Below, in pieces: positions 43,007 through 53,480 of a stretch of DNA of 64,000 bases. The position numbers and the translations under genes were made by a program. The notes beneath the pieces were generated by a model. That model worked only from the letters and a program-made list of their open reading frames with translations, searched no databases and had not been told where the DNA came from. This DNA comes from Ornatilinea apprima (lineage in GTDB: Bacteria > Chloroflexota > Anaerolineae > Anaerolineales > Anaerolineaceae). The stretch is from positions 1 to 64,000 of the forward strand of contig NZ_LGCL01000002.1 in the NCBI RefSeq assembly GCF_001306115.1, read 5' to 3'. Within the stretch, counting starts at the first letter, position 1. The number at the start of each line of letters is the position of its first letter.

Positions 43007-44377
43007 TTAGCCTATATTGTAAAGAAAATGAACAATAGTATCGATTCCCTTGTAGAAAGTTGGGAGGTGCAGCCTTTCATTCGGAGAATGGATGTTATCT
43101 TCTGGCAGACCAAAACCGGTCAAAATGGATTGCACACCCAGGATTTCTTGTAGATCCGTCGTAACCGGGACGCTGCCGCCTTCGAGTTTGAACACAGGTT
43201 TCACTTGAAAGGCGGTTTCAAGCGCGTGAGCAAATGCGATGGTTGCTGGCTGGTCTGGGTTGATCAGCAGAGGTGCGCCACCAGATAATTTCTTGGCTTC
43301 CCATTTGACGGTGGGGGGCATTTTCTCTTGGAGAAATGCCAGCAATTGTTGGTAGACCTTTTCATGATCTTGGTTGGGTACCAGGCGGGAAGAGATTTTT
43401 GCGATGGCGTATGAGGGTAAGACGGTTTTTTGGCCTTCGCCAATAAACCCTGAATACAAACCATGCACTTCTAGGGTTGGGCGTGCGCCCAGGCGTTCCA
43501 CGGGAGTGAAGCCTTTTTCACCCCACAGGGCGGGGGCGCCTGTCTGGCGCAGAAAATCGTCATCGCTGACCGGCAGGCGGGATAATTCCGCGCGTTCTTT
43601 TTCATCGAGCACGCGCACATCATCATAAAATCCGGGCAGGGTTACTCGGCCGTTTTCGTCGTGCATGGCCGCGATCACTTCTGCCAGGGCTTGCGCCGGG
43701 TTATGCACAATCCCGCCAAACAGGCCTGAGTGCAGGTCGTGGTCGGGACCGGTTACTTTAATTTCAAAGTAAGACAATCCGCGCAGCCCGTAGGTGATAG
43801 CGGGGATGTTTTCTCCCACCATGCCCGTATCGGGGTTGAGAACAAAGTCACAGGCCAGCAGATCTTTATGGGCGCGAATTGCGGAAGCCAGATTTGGCGA
43901 GCCAATTTCCTCTTCACCTTCGACAATGAATTTGATATTGACTTTTAATCCGCCGGTTTTGAGGGTGGCGTCGACTGCGGCAATACAAGCCAGTATTTGA
44001 CCCTTCATATCAGATGTTCCACGGCCAAAAAGCAAATCACCGTCTTGTACTGGATCAAAGGGGTCTGATTTCCATAACTCCAGCGGATCCGGTGGTTGAA
44101 CATCGTAATGGCCGTAAATCAAAACAGTCGGATACGAGGAATCAAGAATTGCTTCTCCATACACGGCCGGATTTCCGGCGGTAGGCAGGAGCTGCACATT
44201 CTTCATACCTATCTTTGATAAATAGGCGGCGATCCAATTTGCCGCTTTGAGCATATCTTGATAATTTTCTTGCGAGGTGGAAATGGAAGGGATTTTGACG
44301 AGTTCTTTTAAGTCAGCAAGGGTTTGATGTCGTTGGCTTTCGGCAAGCTGGATGGCAGCGCTTCTTTGATCGTACAT
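43007..44377 (-). CDS. M20-family dipeptidase/peptidase
   Basis: AGGAG 7-8 nt upstream selects the ATG at 44377 (456 residues); the longer frame to 44677 would run through the leader region and is unlikely. Metal-site motifs: YGHYDVQPPDP, RGTSDMKGQ, EGEEEIGSP and NPDTGM. The lid domain contains HDLHSGLFGG. Such enzymes are broad cytoplasmic dipeptidases or CNDP-like hydrolases. It is divergent from the ssnA leader region. Confidence 0.93.
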   Translation of the reverse strand: MYDQRSAAIQLAESQRHQTLADLKELVKIPSISTSQENYQDMLKAANWIAAYLSKIGMKNVQLLPTAGNPAVYGEAILDSSYPTVLIYGHYDVQPPDPLELWKSDPFDPVQDGDLLFGRGTSDMKGQILACIAAVDATLKTGGLKVNIKFIVEGEEEIGSPNLASAIRAHKDLLACDFVLNPDTGMVGENIPAITYGLRGLSYFEIKVTGPDHDLHSGLFGGIVHNPAQALAEVIAAMHDENGRVTLPGFYDDVRVLDEKERAELSRLPVSDDDFLRQTGAPALWGEKGFTPVERLGARPTLEVHGLYSGFIGEGQKTVLPSYAIAKISSRLVPNQDHEKVYQQLLAFLQEKMPPTVKWEAKKLSGGAPLLINPDQPATIAFAHALETAFQVKPVFKLEGGSVPVTTDLQEILGVQSILTGFGLPEDNIHSPNERLHLPTFYKGIDTIVHFLYNIG

Positions 44378-44500
44378 TTTTTGCTCCTGTTCATTCGATA
44401 AACTGCGTTTCTGATTATACGTTATTAAGAAGATAATTGCGAACAATTGAATTTGTCTTACAATTATCTTAAAATAAATTGTGCAATTTGAATTTGAATA

Positions 44501-44509
44501 TGCTAGAAT
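44501..44509 (+). promoter_or_regulatory. Extended -10 promoter of the ssnA leader
   Basis: TG-C-TAGAAT (TG at 44501-44502, hexamer 44504-44509). No strong -35 is seen, as expected for extended -10 promoters. The predicted start at about 44516 lies a few nucleotides before the first base of the P1 helix at 44522. Confidence 0.55.
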
Positions 44510-44515
44510 AATTTT

Positions 44516-44768
44516 ATATCTGGATTCGGTGGTCAGCCACAGCCCGTGCTGAGACTGGCGCCGGGGATGATCTCCGGTGAAAAGTGCCGCCTTCCTGTAA
44601 TCCACCGATCCTATGACGAAAAATAAGCAACTTGTTGACTTGTTAAATAATTGTTCGCGGTTAGCAATACCGTTCATCCGGAATGCTAACGCGTACTCCC
44701 ATGCATTACCGTTGAGCTACATTGCTGATAGCTTCAATGAGCCACTTACCGGGGATAAGTGGCTTTTT
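44516..44768 (+). promoter_or_regulatory. Structured RNA leader with attenuator: candidate riboswitch of the ssnA operon
   Basis: The region 44378-44807 is a 430-bp gap between divergent genes. In it, 44522-44532 pairs with 44602-44611 (10 bp, one bulged U) to close a domain that contains a TCAGC/GCTGA hairpin (44533-44552) and a CCGG-rich hairpin (44561-44577) followed by GGTGAAAAGTGCCGCC. A second hairpin pairs 44656-44666 with 44684-44693. A terminator follows at 44740-44768, 24 nt before the first in-frame ATG. I cannot assign a known class. Genes downstream include a molybdenum hydroxylase, so a molybdenum cofactor or purine ligand is plausible. Confidence 0.6.
44740..44768 (+). terminator. 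Intrinsic terminator/attenuator before ssnA
   Basis: AGCCACTTA (44740-44748), loop CCGGGGA, TAAGTGGCT (44756-44764), then four further T (44765-44768). The upstream gene is divergent, so the only transcript it can stop is the ssnA leader itself. Confidence 0.88.
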
Positions 44769-44807
44769 CATCCTTTTGATTGAACTGGTGTAATGAATGG
44801 AGACGAG

Positions 44808-46172
44808 ATGATTATCAAAAACGGTAAAATTATTACCTGGGAAAAAGAGAACCGAATATTGGATGGACAGGCGATCTTGATTCAGGGAGATATGATTAAG
44901 AAGATTGCTCCTGTTGAGGATCTGCTGCGAGAATATCCAGGAGAGGAACTGGTTGACGCCAAAGGGCAATATGTGATGCCGGGCAATATTTGCGCGCATA
45001 CTCATTTTTATGGTGCCTACGCGCGCGGGATGGCCATTCCGGGGGCTGCTCCGAAAGACTTTACCGAAATTCTACAAAAATTGTGGTTTCGATTGGACCA
45101 GGCTTTGGATGAAGACAGCGTGCGCGCTTCGGCGTATGTCTGTATTTTGGATGCGATCAAGCATGGAACGACGACTCTGATCGATCACCACGCATCCCCG
45201 AACTTTATTGATGGTTCATTGGATGTCATTGCTGATGTGGTGGATGAAACGGGTATCCGCGCTGCGCTTTGCTACGAGGTTACTGACCGGGGCGGTGAAG
45301 GACGAATGAAGGCTGGCGTGGAAGAAAATATGCGATTCATCCGAAAGGTGCAGTCCTCCCGCCCTGGTGATGGGCGGTTGAGCGCGTTATTTGGGCTTCA
45401 TGCAGGTTTGACCCTATCTGAAGAAACCCTGGATGCCTGCCGGAGGGCAAATAATGTGGGGGCAGGATTCCACATTCACGCGGCAGAAGATGCTGCTGAC
45501 GAATATGATAGCCTGACGAAATCGGGTTTACGGACGATTGACCGGCTGCAGAAGCATGGGATTTTGGGAAGAAACAGCATTGTCGCGCACGCCGTACATG
45601 TAGATATAAAAGAGATTGATATCCTGGCAGAAACGGGCACCTGGGTTACGCACCAGCCTCGCTCCAATATGAACAATGCAGTTGGTATGGCTCAGGTGGA
45701 AGGCATGCTTAGGTCAGGTGTTCGCCTTGGACTGGGAAATGATGGGATGTCGAATGATATGTGGGAAGAGTGGAAGGCAACTTATTTTGTGCATAAGTTG
45801 TGGCACCGCGATTCCCGCAGGATGCCGGCTTCATTGATCGAACAAATGGCTGTGTACAACAACGCTGAGCTGGCGACTGACCTGTTCAACGTGGGCAAAA
45901 TTGGGAAAATTGAGCCAGGCGCTCAGGCAGACCTGATCTTTGTGGATTATCATCCTTACACTCCTCTCACCACCGGAAACCTGCCCTGGCATATTGTATT
46001 TGGTTTCCACTCCAGTATGATCACCACCACGATGGTGGCAGGCAAGTTCTTAATGCAGAATCGTCAATTGATTTGGATTGATGAAGAAAAGATTGCGCGT
46101 GAAGCGTTGGGGTTCGCGCCAGATGTTTGGAAGCGATTCGTAACTATCTCGCAAGAAACCTTGGAGGCATGA
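44808..46172 (+). CDS. ssnA: SsnA-like amidohydrolase (putative aminohydrolase)
   Basis: 454 residues from the ATG at 44808, which has GGAG 5 nt upstream; the ATG at 44793 is in frame but lacks one. Amidohydrolase metal motifs are AHTHFYGAYARGM, GFHIHAAED, VAHAVHVD and GNDGMSNDMWEEW. SsnA-type members are predicted to deaminate or dechlorinate N-heterocycles and are often found next to molybdenum hydroxylases. Its stop overlaps the next gene (ATGA), which begins the F420 part of the operon. Confidence 0.88.
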   Translation: MIIKNGKIITWEKENRILDGQAILIQGDMIKKIAPVEDLLREYPGEELVDAKGQYVMPGNICAHTHFYGAYARGMAIPGAAPKDFTEILQKLWFRLDQALDEDSVRASAYVCILDAIKHGTTTLIDHHASPNFIDGSLDVIADVVDETGIRAALCYEVTDRGGEGRMKAGVEENMRFIRKVQSSRPGDGRLSALFGLHAGLTLSEETLDACRRANNVGAGFHIHAAEDAADEYDSLTKSGLRTIDRLQKHGILGRNSIVAHAVHVDIKEIDILAETGTWVTHQPRSNMNNAVGMAQVEGMLRSGVRLGLGNDGMSNDMWEEWKATYFVHKLWHRDSRRMPASLIEQMAVYNNAELATDLFNVGKIGKIEPGAQADLIFVDYHPYTPLTTGNLPWHIVFGFHSSMITTTMVAGKFLMQNRQLIWIDEEKIAREALGFAPDVWKRFVTISQETLEA

Positions 46173-49442: not shown

Positions 49443-50858
49443 ATGTGGAATCGATACATCAGCGCTGTTCACATCGATGAAGTTCTGGATGCACTTGCCA
49501 AATACCAGCATGAGGCACGCGTAGTTGCGGGCGGCACTGATATCATTTTAGAAATCGAACGAGGGGCGCGAAAGGATGTTCAGACCTTGATTGACATTTC
49601 TCGCGTGCCTGGAATGGACCAAATTGATCTGGATGAAGATGGCATCATTCATATTGGTGCCAATGTTACTCATAATGAATGTGTCGCCTCAAAACTCATT
49701 CGCGAGCACGCCTTTCCGCTGGCTCAGGCATGCTGGGAAGTTGGATCACCTCAAATTCGCAATCGGGGCACCATCGCGGGGAATCTAGTTACAGCTTCTC
49801 CTGCAAATGACACGATAACCCCTCTGATGGCTCTCGATGCCAGCTTGGTCTTGAAATCAAAAAATGGTGAGCGAACCGTTGCCTTGAAAGATTTTTATCT
49901 GGGCGTACGCAAGACAGTTTTGAAGCCTGATGAGATTGTATATGAAATTCAAATCCCATCCTTGAAGAAAAACGATAAGGGCTATTTCATCAAGCTTGCT
50001 CTTCGAAAAGCGCAAGCGATATCGCTGGTCAATGTCGCGGTGGTTGCAGGTTTTGAGCAGAACCGGGTGACGCACGCAGCGATCAGCTTGGGCGCAGTGG
50101 CGCCTACCATTATTCGAGTGGCTCAAGCAGAAGATTATCTGGTCGGAAAAGTATTAGATTCAGAGACGATTGAAGAGGCTGCCCGGTTGGCGATGGAAGT
50201 GGCAAAACCGATCAGTGATGTGCGCTCGACTGCTGCGTATCGAAAAGCCATGTCGCGTGTCATTACCCGCCGGGCGTTATCCGCGATTTCTGATGGAGGA
50301 TTTTTATCTGCCATTCCGGATCAGCCGGTGTATTTGAAAGCAAGCGACCTGGTCAGCACTTTGCCTGAAAAGGTTGAATACCCTGGAGGAGTGATCCAGA
50401 CCCGTGTAAACGGCAAAGATTATACTCTTCAATCCGGGTTCGAGAAAACCTTGCTGCGTCTCTTGCGAGAAGATGTTGGTCTTACCGGAACGAAGGAGGG
50501 CTGCGCGGAGGGTGAGTGCGGGGCCTGTACAGTAATTCTGGATGGAAAGGCGGTCATGAGCTGTATGGTGCCGGCAGCACGCGCGCACATGGCCGAGATT
50601 CGCACAGTGGAGGGGTTGGCCAATGAGGCAGGGCTGCACCCGGTGCAGGAGGCTTTTGTGGAAGCAGGCGCAGTTCAGTGTGGTTACTGCACACCAGGAT
50701 TTTTGATGTCTGCTGCGGTTTTATTGGAGGAATTGCCTCAGCCCTCCAAAGATCAGATCAAACAGGCCTTCACAGGCAATTTATGCCGATGCACAGGGTA
50801 TTACAGCATCATCGACGCAGTGGAACGAACGATTACTCGAAAGGCTGAAGGAGGGTAG
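49443..50858 (+). CDS. Molybdenum hydroxylase small/medium fused subunit: FAD domain followed by 2Fe-2S domains
   Basis: 471 residues. An FAD-binding domain comes first (AGGTDIILEIERG, IGANVTHNECV, QIRNRGTIAGNLVTASPANDT), then its C-terminal domain, then from about residue 315 a plant-type 2Fe-2S domain (GCAEGECGACTV) and a helical 2Fe-2S domain (CGYCTPGF, GNLCRCTGY). The usual XdhA order is 2Fe-2S before FAD, so the order here is inverted. The subunit passes electrons from the Mo subunit to FAD and an acceptor. GGAGG precedes the ATG. Confidence 0.93.
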   Translation: MWNRYISAVHIDEVLDALAKYQHEARVVAGGTDIILEIERGARKDVQTLIDISRVPGMDQIDLDEDGIIHIGANVTHNECVASKLIREHAFPLAQACWEVGSPQIRNRGTIAGNLVTASPANDTITPLMALDASLVLKSKNGERTVALKDFYLGVRKTVLKPDEIVYEIQIPSLKKNDKGYFIKLALRKAQAISLVNVAVVAGFEQNRVTHAAISLGAVAPTIIRVAQAEDYLVGKVLDSETIEEAARLAMEVAKPISDVRSTAAYRKAMSRVITRRALSAISDGGFLSAIPDQPVYLKASDLVSTLPEKVEYPGGVIQTRVNGKDYTLQSGFEKTLLRLLREDVGLTGTKEGCAEGECGACTVILDGKAVMSCMVPAARAHMAEIRTVEGLANEAGLHPVQEAFVEAGAVQCGYCTPGFLMSAAVLLEELPQPSKDQIKQAFTGNLCRCTGYYSIIDAVERTITRKAEGG

Positions 50859-51224: not shown

Positions 51225-51260
51225 TCATTGACCCTGTTTATTCACATTCCAGGAGCTGAT

Positions 51261-53480
51261 ATGTCTTATATCGGACAGTCTGTTCAGAAAATTGATTCGG
51301 TATCGAAAGTCAAAGGCGAAGCGATGTATCCGGGCGACATCAATCTTCCGGATCAGGCTTATATGAAGATTTTGTTCTCTGACCGCGCGCATGCGATTGT
51401 TGAGGCAATTGACACATCTGAGGCGGAACAGGAGCCAGGTGTGATTGCTGTCTTTACGGCCAAAGATGTGCCGGTTAATGAATATGGCCAAATTATCATT
51501 GACCAGCCGGTATTGTGCGGTCCGGGTTCCACGAAACCCTATGCTGATCGGGTTCGGTTTATAGGAGACCAGGTTGCATTGGTGGTCGCGGAGACAGAAG
51601 AGATTGCGGCCAGGGCTGTAAAGCTGATTCGCGTGACGTACAAAGATTTACCGGTGATCAGTTCTATTGACGATGGATTACAAGAAGACGGAGAATTGAT
51701 TCACCCTGATCACGGCTCGAACATTTTGAATCATGTTCAGATCCGGCATGGGAATGCCGAAGAAGCCTTCAAGCAGGCGGATGTCATTGTTGAAGGCGTT
51801 TATGAAACCCCTGCTCAAGAACACGCTTTCCTGCAGCCAGAAGCCGGCCTCTCTTATATCGATGAGGAGGGGCGGGTAACGGTAGTTGTCTCTGGCCAAT
51901 GGACGCATGAAGAGCAGGAAGAGATTGCCCATGCATTAGACCTCCCGCTTGACCAGGTGCGGGTTATATACCCTGCGATTGGCGGCGCGTTTGGCGGCCG
52001 GGAAGATATGTCGGTCCAGATCGTTTTGGCGCTGGCTGCCTGGCGGCTGCAACAGCGTGGGATTAACCGCCCGGTAAAGATCATTTGGAGTCGCGAGGAA
52101 TCAATCGTCGGGCATGCCAAGCGACACCCCTATCGGATCCACGCGAAATGGGGCGCGACGAAAGAAGGTAAAGTCGTCGCCGCGGAAGTGAAACTATACG
52201 CGGACGCGGGCGCATACGCGTATACATCCACCACGGTCATGGGCAATGCGCTGATCAATAGCACCGCTCCCTATGAAATACCAAATGCCAATATCGACGG
52301 TTACAATGTTTTCACCAATAACATTCCCAGCGCGGCCTTCCGGGGTTTTGGCGGCCCGCAGGGCGCGTTTGCCGCCGAGCAGCAGATGAGCAAACTGGCA
52401 GAAATGCTGGGCATGGACCCGGTAGAGTTGCGCGCACGCAATGTGGTAAAAGAGGGTTCCATTCTGACTGTAGGTACGGCTTTGCCGGAGGGCGTGAGCA
52501 TGCCCGAAGTGCTGGCTGTCTGCGCGGAAAAAGCCGGCTGGCAAATGACCGAACAAGGCTGGCGGCGGCCAGAAACACCGGCGGCGCCAGCAGGCAGCAA
52601 CCTGCGGCGTGGGCGAGGGCTGGCCTGCGCTTTCAAGAACATTGGTTTCAGTTTTGGTTTTCAGGAAGAGTGCTCGGCTACCATTGAATTGTATGGTGAT
52701 GCGGAAATTGAGAAAGTGGTTTTCTACCATGCCGGCGCCGATGTGGGGCAGGGCGGCCATACCGTTCTTAAGCAAATGGCCGCGTCCGCTTTGGGCGTGC
52801 CGGTGGAAATGATTGAGACACATTATTCCGATACCGCTACGGCATTAAATTCAGGGAGCGCTTCTGCTTCACGATTGACTATGATGGCAGGTAATTCCAT
52901 TATCGGCGCGGCAAACCAGGCGCTTAAACAATGGAAAAACGAAGAACGCCCGGCAAAAGCCTCGTATCGTTATCTAGCGCGGAAAACAACCCCCTTTGAG
53001 CCAATGACCGGTAAATCTTTCCCCAATATCGCTTATGGGTATGTGGCAGAGGCGGTCGAACTGGAAGTAGATATCGAAACAGGGCATGTTCATTTGATCA
53101 ATGTGATCTGCGCCGACGATGTGGGCAAAGCGATCAATCCGGATCTGGTGAAAGGGCAAATTGAGGGCTGCGTGGTTCAGGCGGCAGGGTATGCTGTATT
53201 GGAGGACTTTATTCAGCGGGGCGGTCAGGTGCTGACCAAGACCTTATCTACTTATTTAATCCCCACCATTCTGGATATCCCTGATCAGGTGGACAGCGTA
53301 ATTCTGGAATATCCGGACCCCACAGGGCCGTGGGGAGCGCGGGGCATGGCTGAAATGCCCTTCCTGCCTCTTGCTCCAGCCGTTACGGCCGCGATTCACG
53401 ATGCTGTGGGCGTGTGGGTCGATCGTTTTCCGGTAACACCCGAAAGGATGCTTGCCGCGCTTGGTAAGCTGCCTGAGTAG
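51261..53480 (+). CDS. Xanthine dehydrogenase-family molybdopterin-binding subunit
   Basis: AGGAG at 51251-51255 selects the ATG at 51261, giving 739 residues. It binds the molybdenum cofactor: GGAFGGREDMSVQ, FRGFGGPQGAFAAEQ, and a C-terminal WGARGMAEMPF that carries the catalytic Glu. The family hydroxylates purines and other N-heterocycles or aldehydes; the substrate cannot be set by eye. It follows the small membrane protein and is followed by a hairpin and mocA. Confidence 0.92.
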   Translation: MSYIGQSVQKIDSVSKVKGEAMYPGDINLPDQAYMKILFSDRAHAIVEAIDTSEAEQEPGVIAVFTAKDVPVNEYGQIIIDQPVLCGPGSTKPYADRVRFIGDQVALVVAETEEIAARAVKLIRVTYKDLPVISSIDDGLQEDGELIHPDHGSNILNHVQIRHGNAEEAFKQADVIVEGVYETPAQEHAFLQPEAGLSYIDEEGRVTVVVSGQWTHEEQEEIAHALDLPLDQVRVIYPAIGGAFGGREDMSVQIVLALAAWRLQQRGINRPVKIIWSREESIVGHAKRHPYRIHAKWGATKEGKVVAAEVKLYADAGAYAYTSTTVMGNALINSTAPYEIPNANIDGYNVFTNNIPSAAFRGFGGPQGAFAAEQQMSKLAEMLGMDPVELRARNVVKEGSILTVGTALPEGVSMPEVLAVCAEKAGWQMTEQGWRRPETPAAPAGSNLRRGRGLACAFKNIGFSFGFQEECSATIELYGDAEIEKVVFYHAGADVGQGGHTVLKQMAASALGVPVEMIETHYSDTATALNSGSASASRLTMMAGNSIIGAANQALKQWKNEERPAKASYRYLARKTTPFEPMTGKSFPNIAYGYVAEAVELEVDIETGHVHLINVICADDVGKAINPDLVKGQIEGCVVQAAGYAVLEDFIQRGGQVLTKTLSTYLIPTILDIPDQVDSVILEYPDPTGPWGARGMAEMPFLPLAPAVTAAIHDAVGVWVDRFPVTPERMLAALGKLPE

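Follow-up and report, generated by a model that had tools for sequence, protein, structure and literature searches.

Is the leader ahead of ssnA in Ornatilinea apprima (Chloroflexota; Anaerolineae) a riboswitch, and if so, what does it sense? We analyzed the DNA around it, a stretch of 64,000 nucleotides (contig NZ_LGCL01000002.1, positions 1 to 64,000, forward strand) that we refer to as the window. An earlier note on this DNA had proposed a riboswitch ahead of the ssnA cluster, and conservation, covariation and gene association support that proposal. We found a real, conserved cis-regulatory RNA, of which window positions 44522-44615 are one copy. It is very probably a new riboswitch class, a small-molecule switch that would open and close a translation start. 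The key element was overlooked in the earlier note: it is the start codon at 44613 with its upstream open reading frame (uORF).

Distribution and covariation of the core

We found copies of the RNA in many relatives. A BLASTN search of 60 related genomes with the leader detected it in five others, at six places, in each case preceding ssnA or a gene for the FAD subunit of a xanthine dehydrogenase (XDH). With a covariance model, 52 copies were detected, spread over 42 of the 147 genomes in the window's family and 17 of 40 genera. A model of the core alone (R2) picked up the RNA in 47 of the 396 genomes sampled from the class, and matched the window at 44528-44591 with 48.9 bits. Two further families had copies in 69 of 150 sampled genomes and in 11 of 14 genomes, respectively.

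When 85,000 species were scanned with a pattern, at least about 28 clear copies came to light; of the clear copies listed, nearly all were from Anaerolineae or Chloroflexi. The exceptions among them were in a Spirochaetales metagenome-assembled genome (L221, 4260-4317, before genes for FAD and molybdenum subunits; L-numbers label loci in the homologue collection) and in a contig labelled Paludibacter (L182, 63-136), and these may reflect horizontal transfer or misbinning. Most of the listed matches from outside Chloroflexota resemble chance in GC-rich sequence, and those inspected had no XDH or ssnA gene downstream. Candidates for spread beyond Anaerolineae from a search of the phylum (L143, L144, L146-L150) scored below 31 bits, look like chance, and were set aside; of these too, those inspected preceded no XDH or ssnA gene.

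The copies share a core with the consensus GGYGGUC-P2-GGCGUYGGG-loop-CCCRUCGAAAAGNRCCRCC, in which three helices meet at one junction. P1 is formed by GGYGGU with RCCRCC. The base of P2 is an invariant C-G, after which one G is unpaired. P3 holds a U.U mismatch in most copies and is followed by a six-nucleotide linker, AAAAGN.

Covariation in homologous leaders had been set beforehand as the test of the proposal, and P1, P2 and P3 all covary. In the BLASTN set (six sequences, chosen without structure), seven predicted pairs were altered on both sides. For broader sets we used MAFFT alignments that were not fitted to the structure. In the first of these, 92.8% of cells were paired and 12 of 21 pairs were altered on both sides; in a second, 91.6% of cells were paired and 14 of 19 pairs, five of them in P1, were altered on both sides. 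None of 500 shuffles reached the values of either alignment, and slid controls collapsed. Copies beyond the BLASTN set were gathered by structure-aware searches, so some ascertainment bias remains in these counts. Leaders of related genes share a conserved, covarying, aptamer-like core, as a riboswitch should.

Folding energy by itself is weak evidence for the element in the window. The 285-nucleotide leader is foldable, as the earlier note had it, and beat 200 of 200 dinucleotide shuffles (z -2.97); the 105-nucleotide domain alone was unremarkable (z -1.45). The domain stands above chance because it is conserved, with BLASTN matches in relatives, covariance-model matches and base-pair covariation.

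Competing pairings at the start codon

The 5' strand of P1 has a second partner. A distal strand recurs at the following start codon and covaries with the 5' strand (GGTGG with CCACC, GGCGG with CCGCC). In copies of the L178 type, the 5' strand GGATCGGCG is matched by a distal CGCCGATCC, and in another family GAACC, just 3' of the start codon, pairs with GGTTC. Complementarity between the 5' and distal strands averaged 19.8, compared to 12.6 with shuffled 3' arms. Many XDH-type copies have a Shine-Dalgarno sequence, then the distal strand, then the ATG. Proximal and distal pairings are mutually exclusive and both are conserved, as in the expression platform of a riboswitch. A single GGYGG strand has two possible partners, CCRCC inside the core and a segment beside the start codon, which suggests an ON switch acting on translation.

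The distal helix is the 10-bp helix (44522-44532 with 44602-44611) around two hairpins that the earlier note took to close the domain. It exists and covaries, but it appears to be the switch pairing, which would hide the ribosome-binding site in competition with the aptamer stem, and not the aptamer stem itself. Our own first structural model (RNAalifold on A1) also had this distal pairing as the domain-closing helix; it was dropped, as distant homologues covary the proximal P1. In distant families that have no distal strand, the sequence of P1 is altered and its pairing is kept (L129, L137, L145). Based on these families we infer that the proximal P1 is the aptamer stem, and the ligand-bound state would therefore be the one in which the distal strand is free and translation is on.

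In the proposed mechanism, the ligand, most likely an oxidized purine such as xanthine, hypoxanthine or urate, would stabilize the core with P1 closed as GGYGG:RCCRCC, leaving the distal strand free for translation. Without ligand, the distal helix would form and the start region would be hidden. Computed energies placed the distal state lower in most copies, usually by about 2-7 kcal/mol. In the window the values were -43.4 for the distal state and -40.2 kcal/mol for the alternative, a gap of 3.2. Ligand binding could pay for a gap of 2-7 kcal/mol.

The uORF and the terminator

In most ssnA-type copies, that of the window among them, an ATG lies after the distal strand and begins an ORF of 23-56 codons. 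Two ssnA-type copies have a GTG start instead, just 5' of the distal strand. In such copies the gated start codon would be that of the uORF. Downstream in the window is an intrinsic terminator, with arms AGCCACTTA/TAAGTGGCT (44740-44748/44756-44764), a computed hairpin energy of -13.6 kcal/mol and T5 directly after; it ends 39 nt 5' of the ATG at 44808. L082-L084, L088-L090 and L110 have terminators of unrelated sequence in the corresponding position, and a clear terminator was not found in L081, L069 and L096. The uORF stops a few nucleotides before the terminator in L082-L084, reads through it in the window, L088-L090 and L110, and overlaps the ssnA start in L068 and L069. The summed uORF length of ten representative ssnA-type copies was reached by 2 of 1000 shuffles, and uORF length is equal among close relatives. 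Among the ssnA-type leaders, L078 has no such ORF and that of L072 has only 12 codons. The uORF peptide had no match in Pfam or NCBIfam. It may be the translation of the uORF that matters, not its product.

Ribosomes on the uORF would prevent the terminator from forming, or would couple into ssnA, so that ligand leads to ssnA expression. This two-stage relay, in which an oxidized-purine ON switch that traps a segment beside the start codon frees the start of the uORF and ribosomes then block the terminator, is a plausible scheme that we hold only tentatively. It is possible, if somewhat doubtful, that the uORF of ssnA-type copies has no role and merely preserves what was once the start of a FAD-subunit gene, and that the terminator is otherwise controlled or gives constitutive attenuation; this reading can stand alongside the main explanation of the core. 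The uORF of L081 (MIPWNKTYFP) resembles the FAD-subunit start of L091 (MIIWNHYYLP), and the peptides show no conservation. However, the ORFs are open for longer than expected and keep the same length in close relatives, and most of them either reach or pass the terminator or overlap ssnA.

The extended -10 element that the earlier note described is present, as are the helix with its two hairpins and the terminator; transcription would begin near 44516. Of 116 distinct copies, 67 have an extended -10 or TATAAT upstream, compared to 15 after shuffling. A strict-pattern scan of the window listed neither promoter nor terminator. The second hairpin (44656-44666 with 44684-44693) is present in the window but has no evident counterpart in homologous leaders. 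A weak antiterminator had also been suggested, AAGTG (44582-44586) with CACTT in the terminator arm. We rejected it: AAAAGTG belongs to the conserved aptamer core, and terminator arms differ between homologues (for example, CCGAAAGG..CCTTTCGG in L082-L084).

The first gene of the cluster was identified as ssnA by profile matches above cut-off (NF005540, 519.7 bits; TIGR03314, 498.8 bits), and its homologues share the MIIKNG/MLITNG start position. On the other side of the leader lies a divergent gene for an M20 peptidase (43007-44378, minus strand); such a gene adjoins the motif in many family members, so the arrangement is conserved.

Table 1. Features of the ssnA leader in the window
Feature	Position	Strand	Sequence, basis or remark
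Extended -10 promoter element	44501..44509	+	TGCTAGAAT; basis: sequence
Shared 5' switching strand	44522..44532	+	GGATTCGGTGG; pairs with 44586-44591 (P1) or 44602-44611 (anti-RBS, ribosome-binding site, helix)
Aptamer core, three-way junction	44528..44591	+	R2 match, pair counts
P1	44528-44533/44586-44591		
P2	from 44534-44536/44555-44557		
P3	44559-44566/44572-44579		
Linker	44580-44585		AAAAGT
Distal strand	44602..44611	+	CCACCGATCC; competitor of aptamer for GGTGG; directly 5' of start codon 44613
uORF, 56 codons	44613..44783	+	begins at the motif's ATG, reads through terminator; no protein family
Intrinsic terminator of leader	44740..44768	+	hairpin plus T5
ssnA	44808..46172	+	Shine-Dalgarno GGAG 44799-44802; first gene of cluster with npdG, cofE and others

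Downstream genes and candidate ligands

Most copies precede genes of one kind. Our scoring placed 108 of the 116 distinct copies ahead of FAD-subunit, XdhA-type or ssnA genes, and L123 and L182 join them on inspection. Downstream of L136, L141 and L277 is a permease of a PnrA-type ATP-binding cassette (ABC) nucleoside transporter, and the L178 operon has a PnrA-like binding protein. L133, L275 and L278 precede apparently unrelated genes. No gene for synthesis of the molybdenum cofactor (Moco) was recognized directly behind any of the 116 copies. The enzymes behind FAD-type copies keep the equivalents of E802, R880, F914 and E1261 where the alignment covers these sites, E802 and R880 in nearly all cases. 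In bovine XDH, whose numbering is used here, these residues bind purines. L207 and L228 precede a different, Q/V/Y-type XdhD-like enzyme, then a NUDIX-like gene and ssnA, with an npdG-like gene in L228.

SsnA itself is closest to the TRZ/ATZ group of deaminases and chlorohydrolases. SsnA and related hydroxylases carry selenium-linked annotation, and a selenocysteine tRNA gene is within 1 kb of the motif copy in L058 (559-651). Also in the window, a single ORF (49443-50858) encodes an XDH FAD domain followed by a [2Fe-2S] domain, the reverse of the domain order in the TIGR02963 small subunit.

Our best guess, and a probable one, is that the ligand is an oxidized purine or purine base. A purine or heterocycle sensor and a molybdenum cofactor element had been the earlier note's first guesses. 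The former is favored over the latter because the regulon consists of XDH-type enzymes, SsnA and a PnrA-type transporter, without a Moco-synthesis gene in first position. On the whole, we think it likely that this RNA forms both the aptamer and the expression platform of a new class of riboswitch, most likely with an oxidized-purine ligand and ON logic and, in ssnA-type copies, possibly with a uORF relay.

Known systems did not account for the RNA. The earlier note could not match it by eye to the TPP, FMN, cobalamin, SAM, purine, ZTP or guanidine consensus, and Rfam 15, with the Moco family included, gave no match either: the whole window contained only a tRNA elsewhere, the leader gave only chance matches to E 10, and 20 homologous loci gave no riboswitch family to E 1. 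We found no report of the motif in the open-access literature, a search that did not extend to subscription papers, preprints or supplements. The ZTP riboswitch (pfl, RF01750) presumably resembles the motif superficially, in GACUGGCG...CCGCC; its covariance model did not match, and GACUG here is in a variable strand of P2. Leader-peptide attenuators and other uORF-regulated leaders are similar in that translation of a short ORF is positioned to affect a terminator or downstream gene. In contrast to these, a structured RNA switch here seems to control whether the uORF itself is translated.

The closest comparisons are to RNAs that sense xanthine. Xanthine-I (NMT1), a two-stem OFF switch of Proteobacteria (PMC7373994), is likewise cis-acting, precedes genes for purine oxidation and transport, and exerts translational control. 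It is a hairpin with a conserved bulge, whereas the RNA in the window has three helices at one junction, is from Anaerolineae, is predicted to be an ON switch, and has no Rfam match. Xanthine-II, a variant of the guanine riboswitch (PMC9295807), has a three-stem junction, and some copies precede xanthine dehydrogenase genes. However, the junction here has no J1-2 linker, a one-nucleotide J2-3 and AAAAGNR as J3-1. The contact between loops L2 and L3 that marks the purine class is not seen, as the P2 and P3 loops vary freely in length and sequence. Nor did Rfam give a riboswitch match, to E 10 in the window or to E 1 in the 20 homologues.

The same RNA and switch might instead respond to Moco, a Moco precursor, F420 or selenium status, such that expression of molybdenum hydroxylases follows cofactor supply. 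The known Moco riboswitch (RF01055) controls genes linked to molybdoenzymes. Molybdenum hydroxylases are in most controlled operons, F420 genes are in ssnA clusters, and a MocA-like gene is further along the cluster in the window. We consider this unlikely: three copies precede a PnrA-type permease and none a recognized Moco-synthesis gene, the first gene of ssnA-type operons does not encode a Moco enzyme, and the covariance model of RF01055 did not match. It is also improbable that the distal helix closes the aptamer and that binding turns the genes off. In favor of this, that helix is long and covaries, and in most copies the predicted minimum-energy fold contains it, but the proximal CCRCC covaries with the 5' strand in families without a distal strand, placing the core's own stem proximally, and a conserved pairing that competes with that stem fits a ligand-free state. 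Another possible reader of this fold is a regulatory protein. The narrow range, mainly Anaerolineae, and the similar conservation that protein-bound leaders can show would allow it; we think this improbable as well, since the unpaired junction nucleotides are strongly conserved over several operon types, typical of aptamers, and no linked regulator gene is common to the copies in the contexts listed.

Several observations weigh against an oxidized-purine ON switch with a uORF relay. That the enzymes behind the copies are specific for purines is something we infer from sequence. The XdhA-like subunit further down the cluster in the window (51228-53480) has Asn at the site equivalent to Arg880, and its substrate may therefore differ from that of the FAD-type enzymes. 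The copy in the window differs at positions that are conserved elsewhere: the U.U mismatch of P3 is replaced by C-G, one pair is G.U, and P2 is split. By computed energy the distal helix is not favored in L086, L090 and L069, and no distal strand is close by in L073, L076, L077 and L078. The uORF statistic is modest copy by copy, and uORF peptides are not conserved.

How bacteria break down purines by way of molybdenum hydroxylases and SsnA is poorly understood, and what such clusters act on is for the most part guesswork. A selective sensor RNA that occurs in many natural copies is a direct route to the inducing metabolite, and hence to the substrate of the pathway. With the RNA described here, Chloroflexota would gain a riboswitch class and perhaps also a new expression platform, one where the switch acts on a terminator through a uORF.
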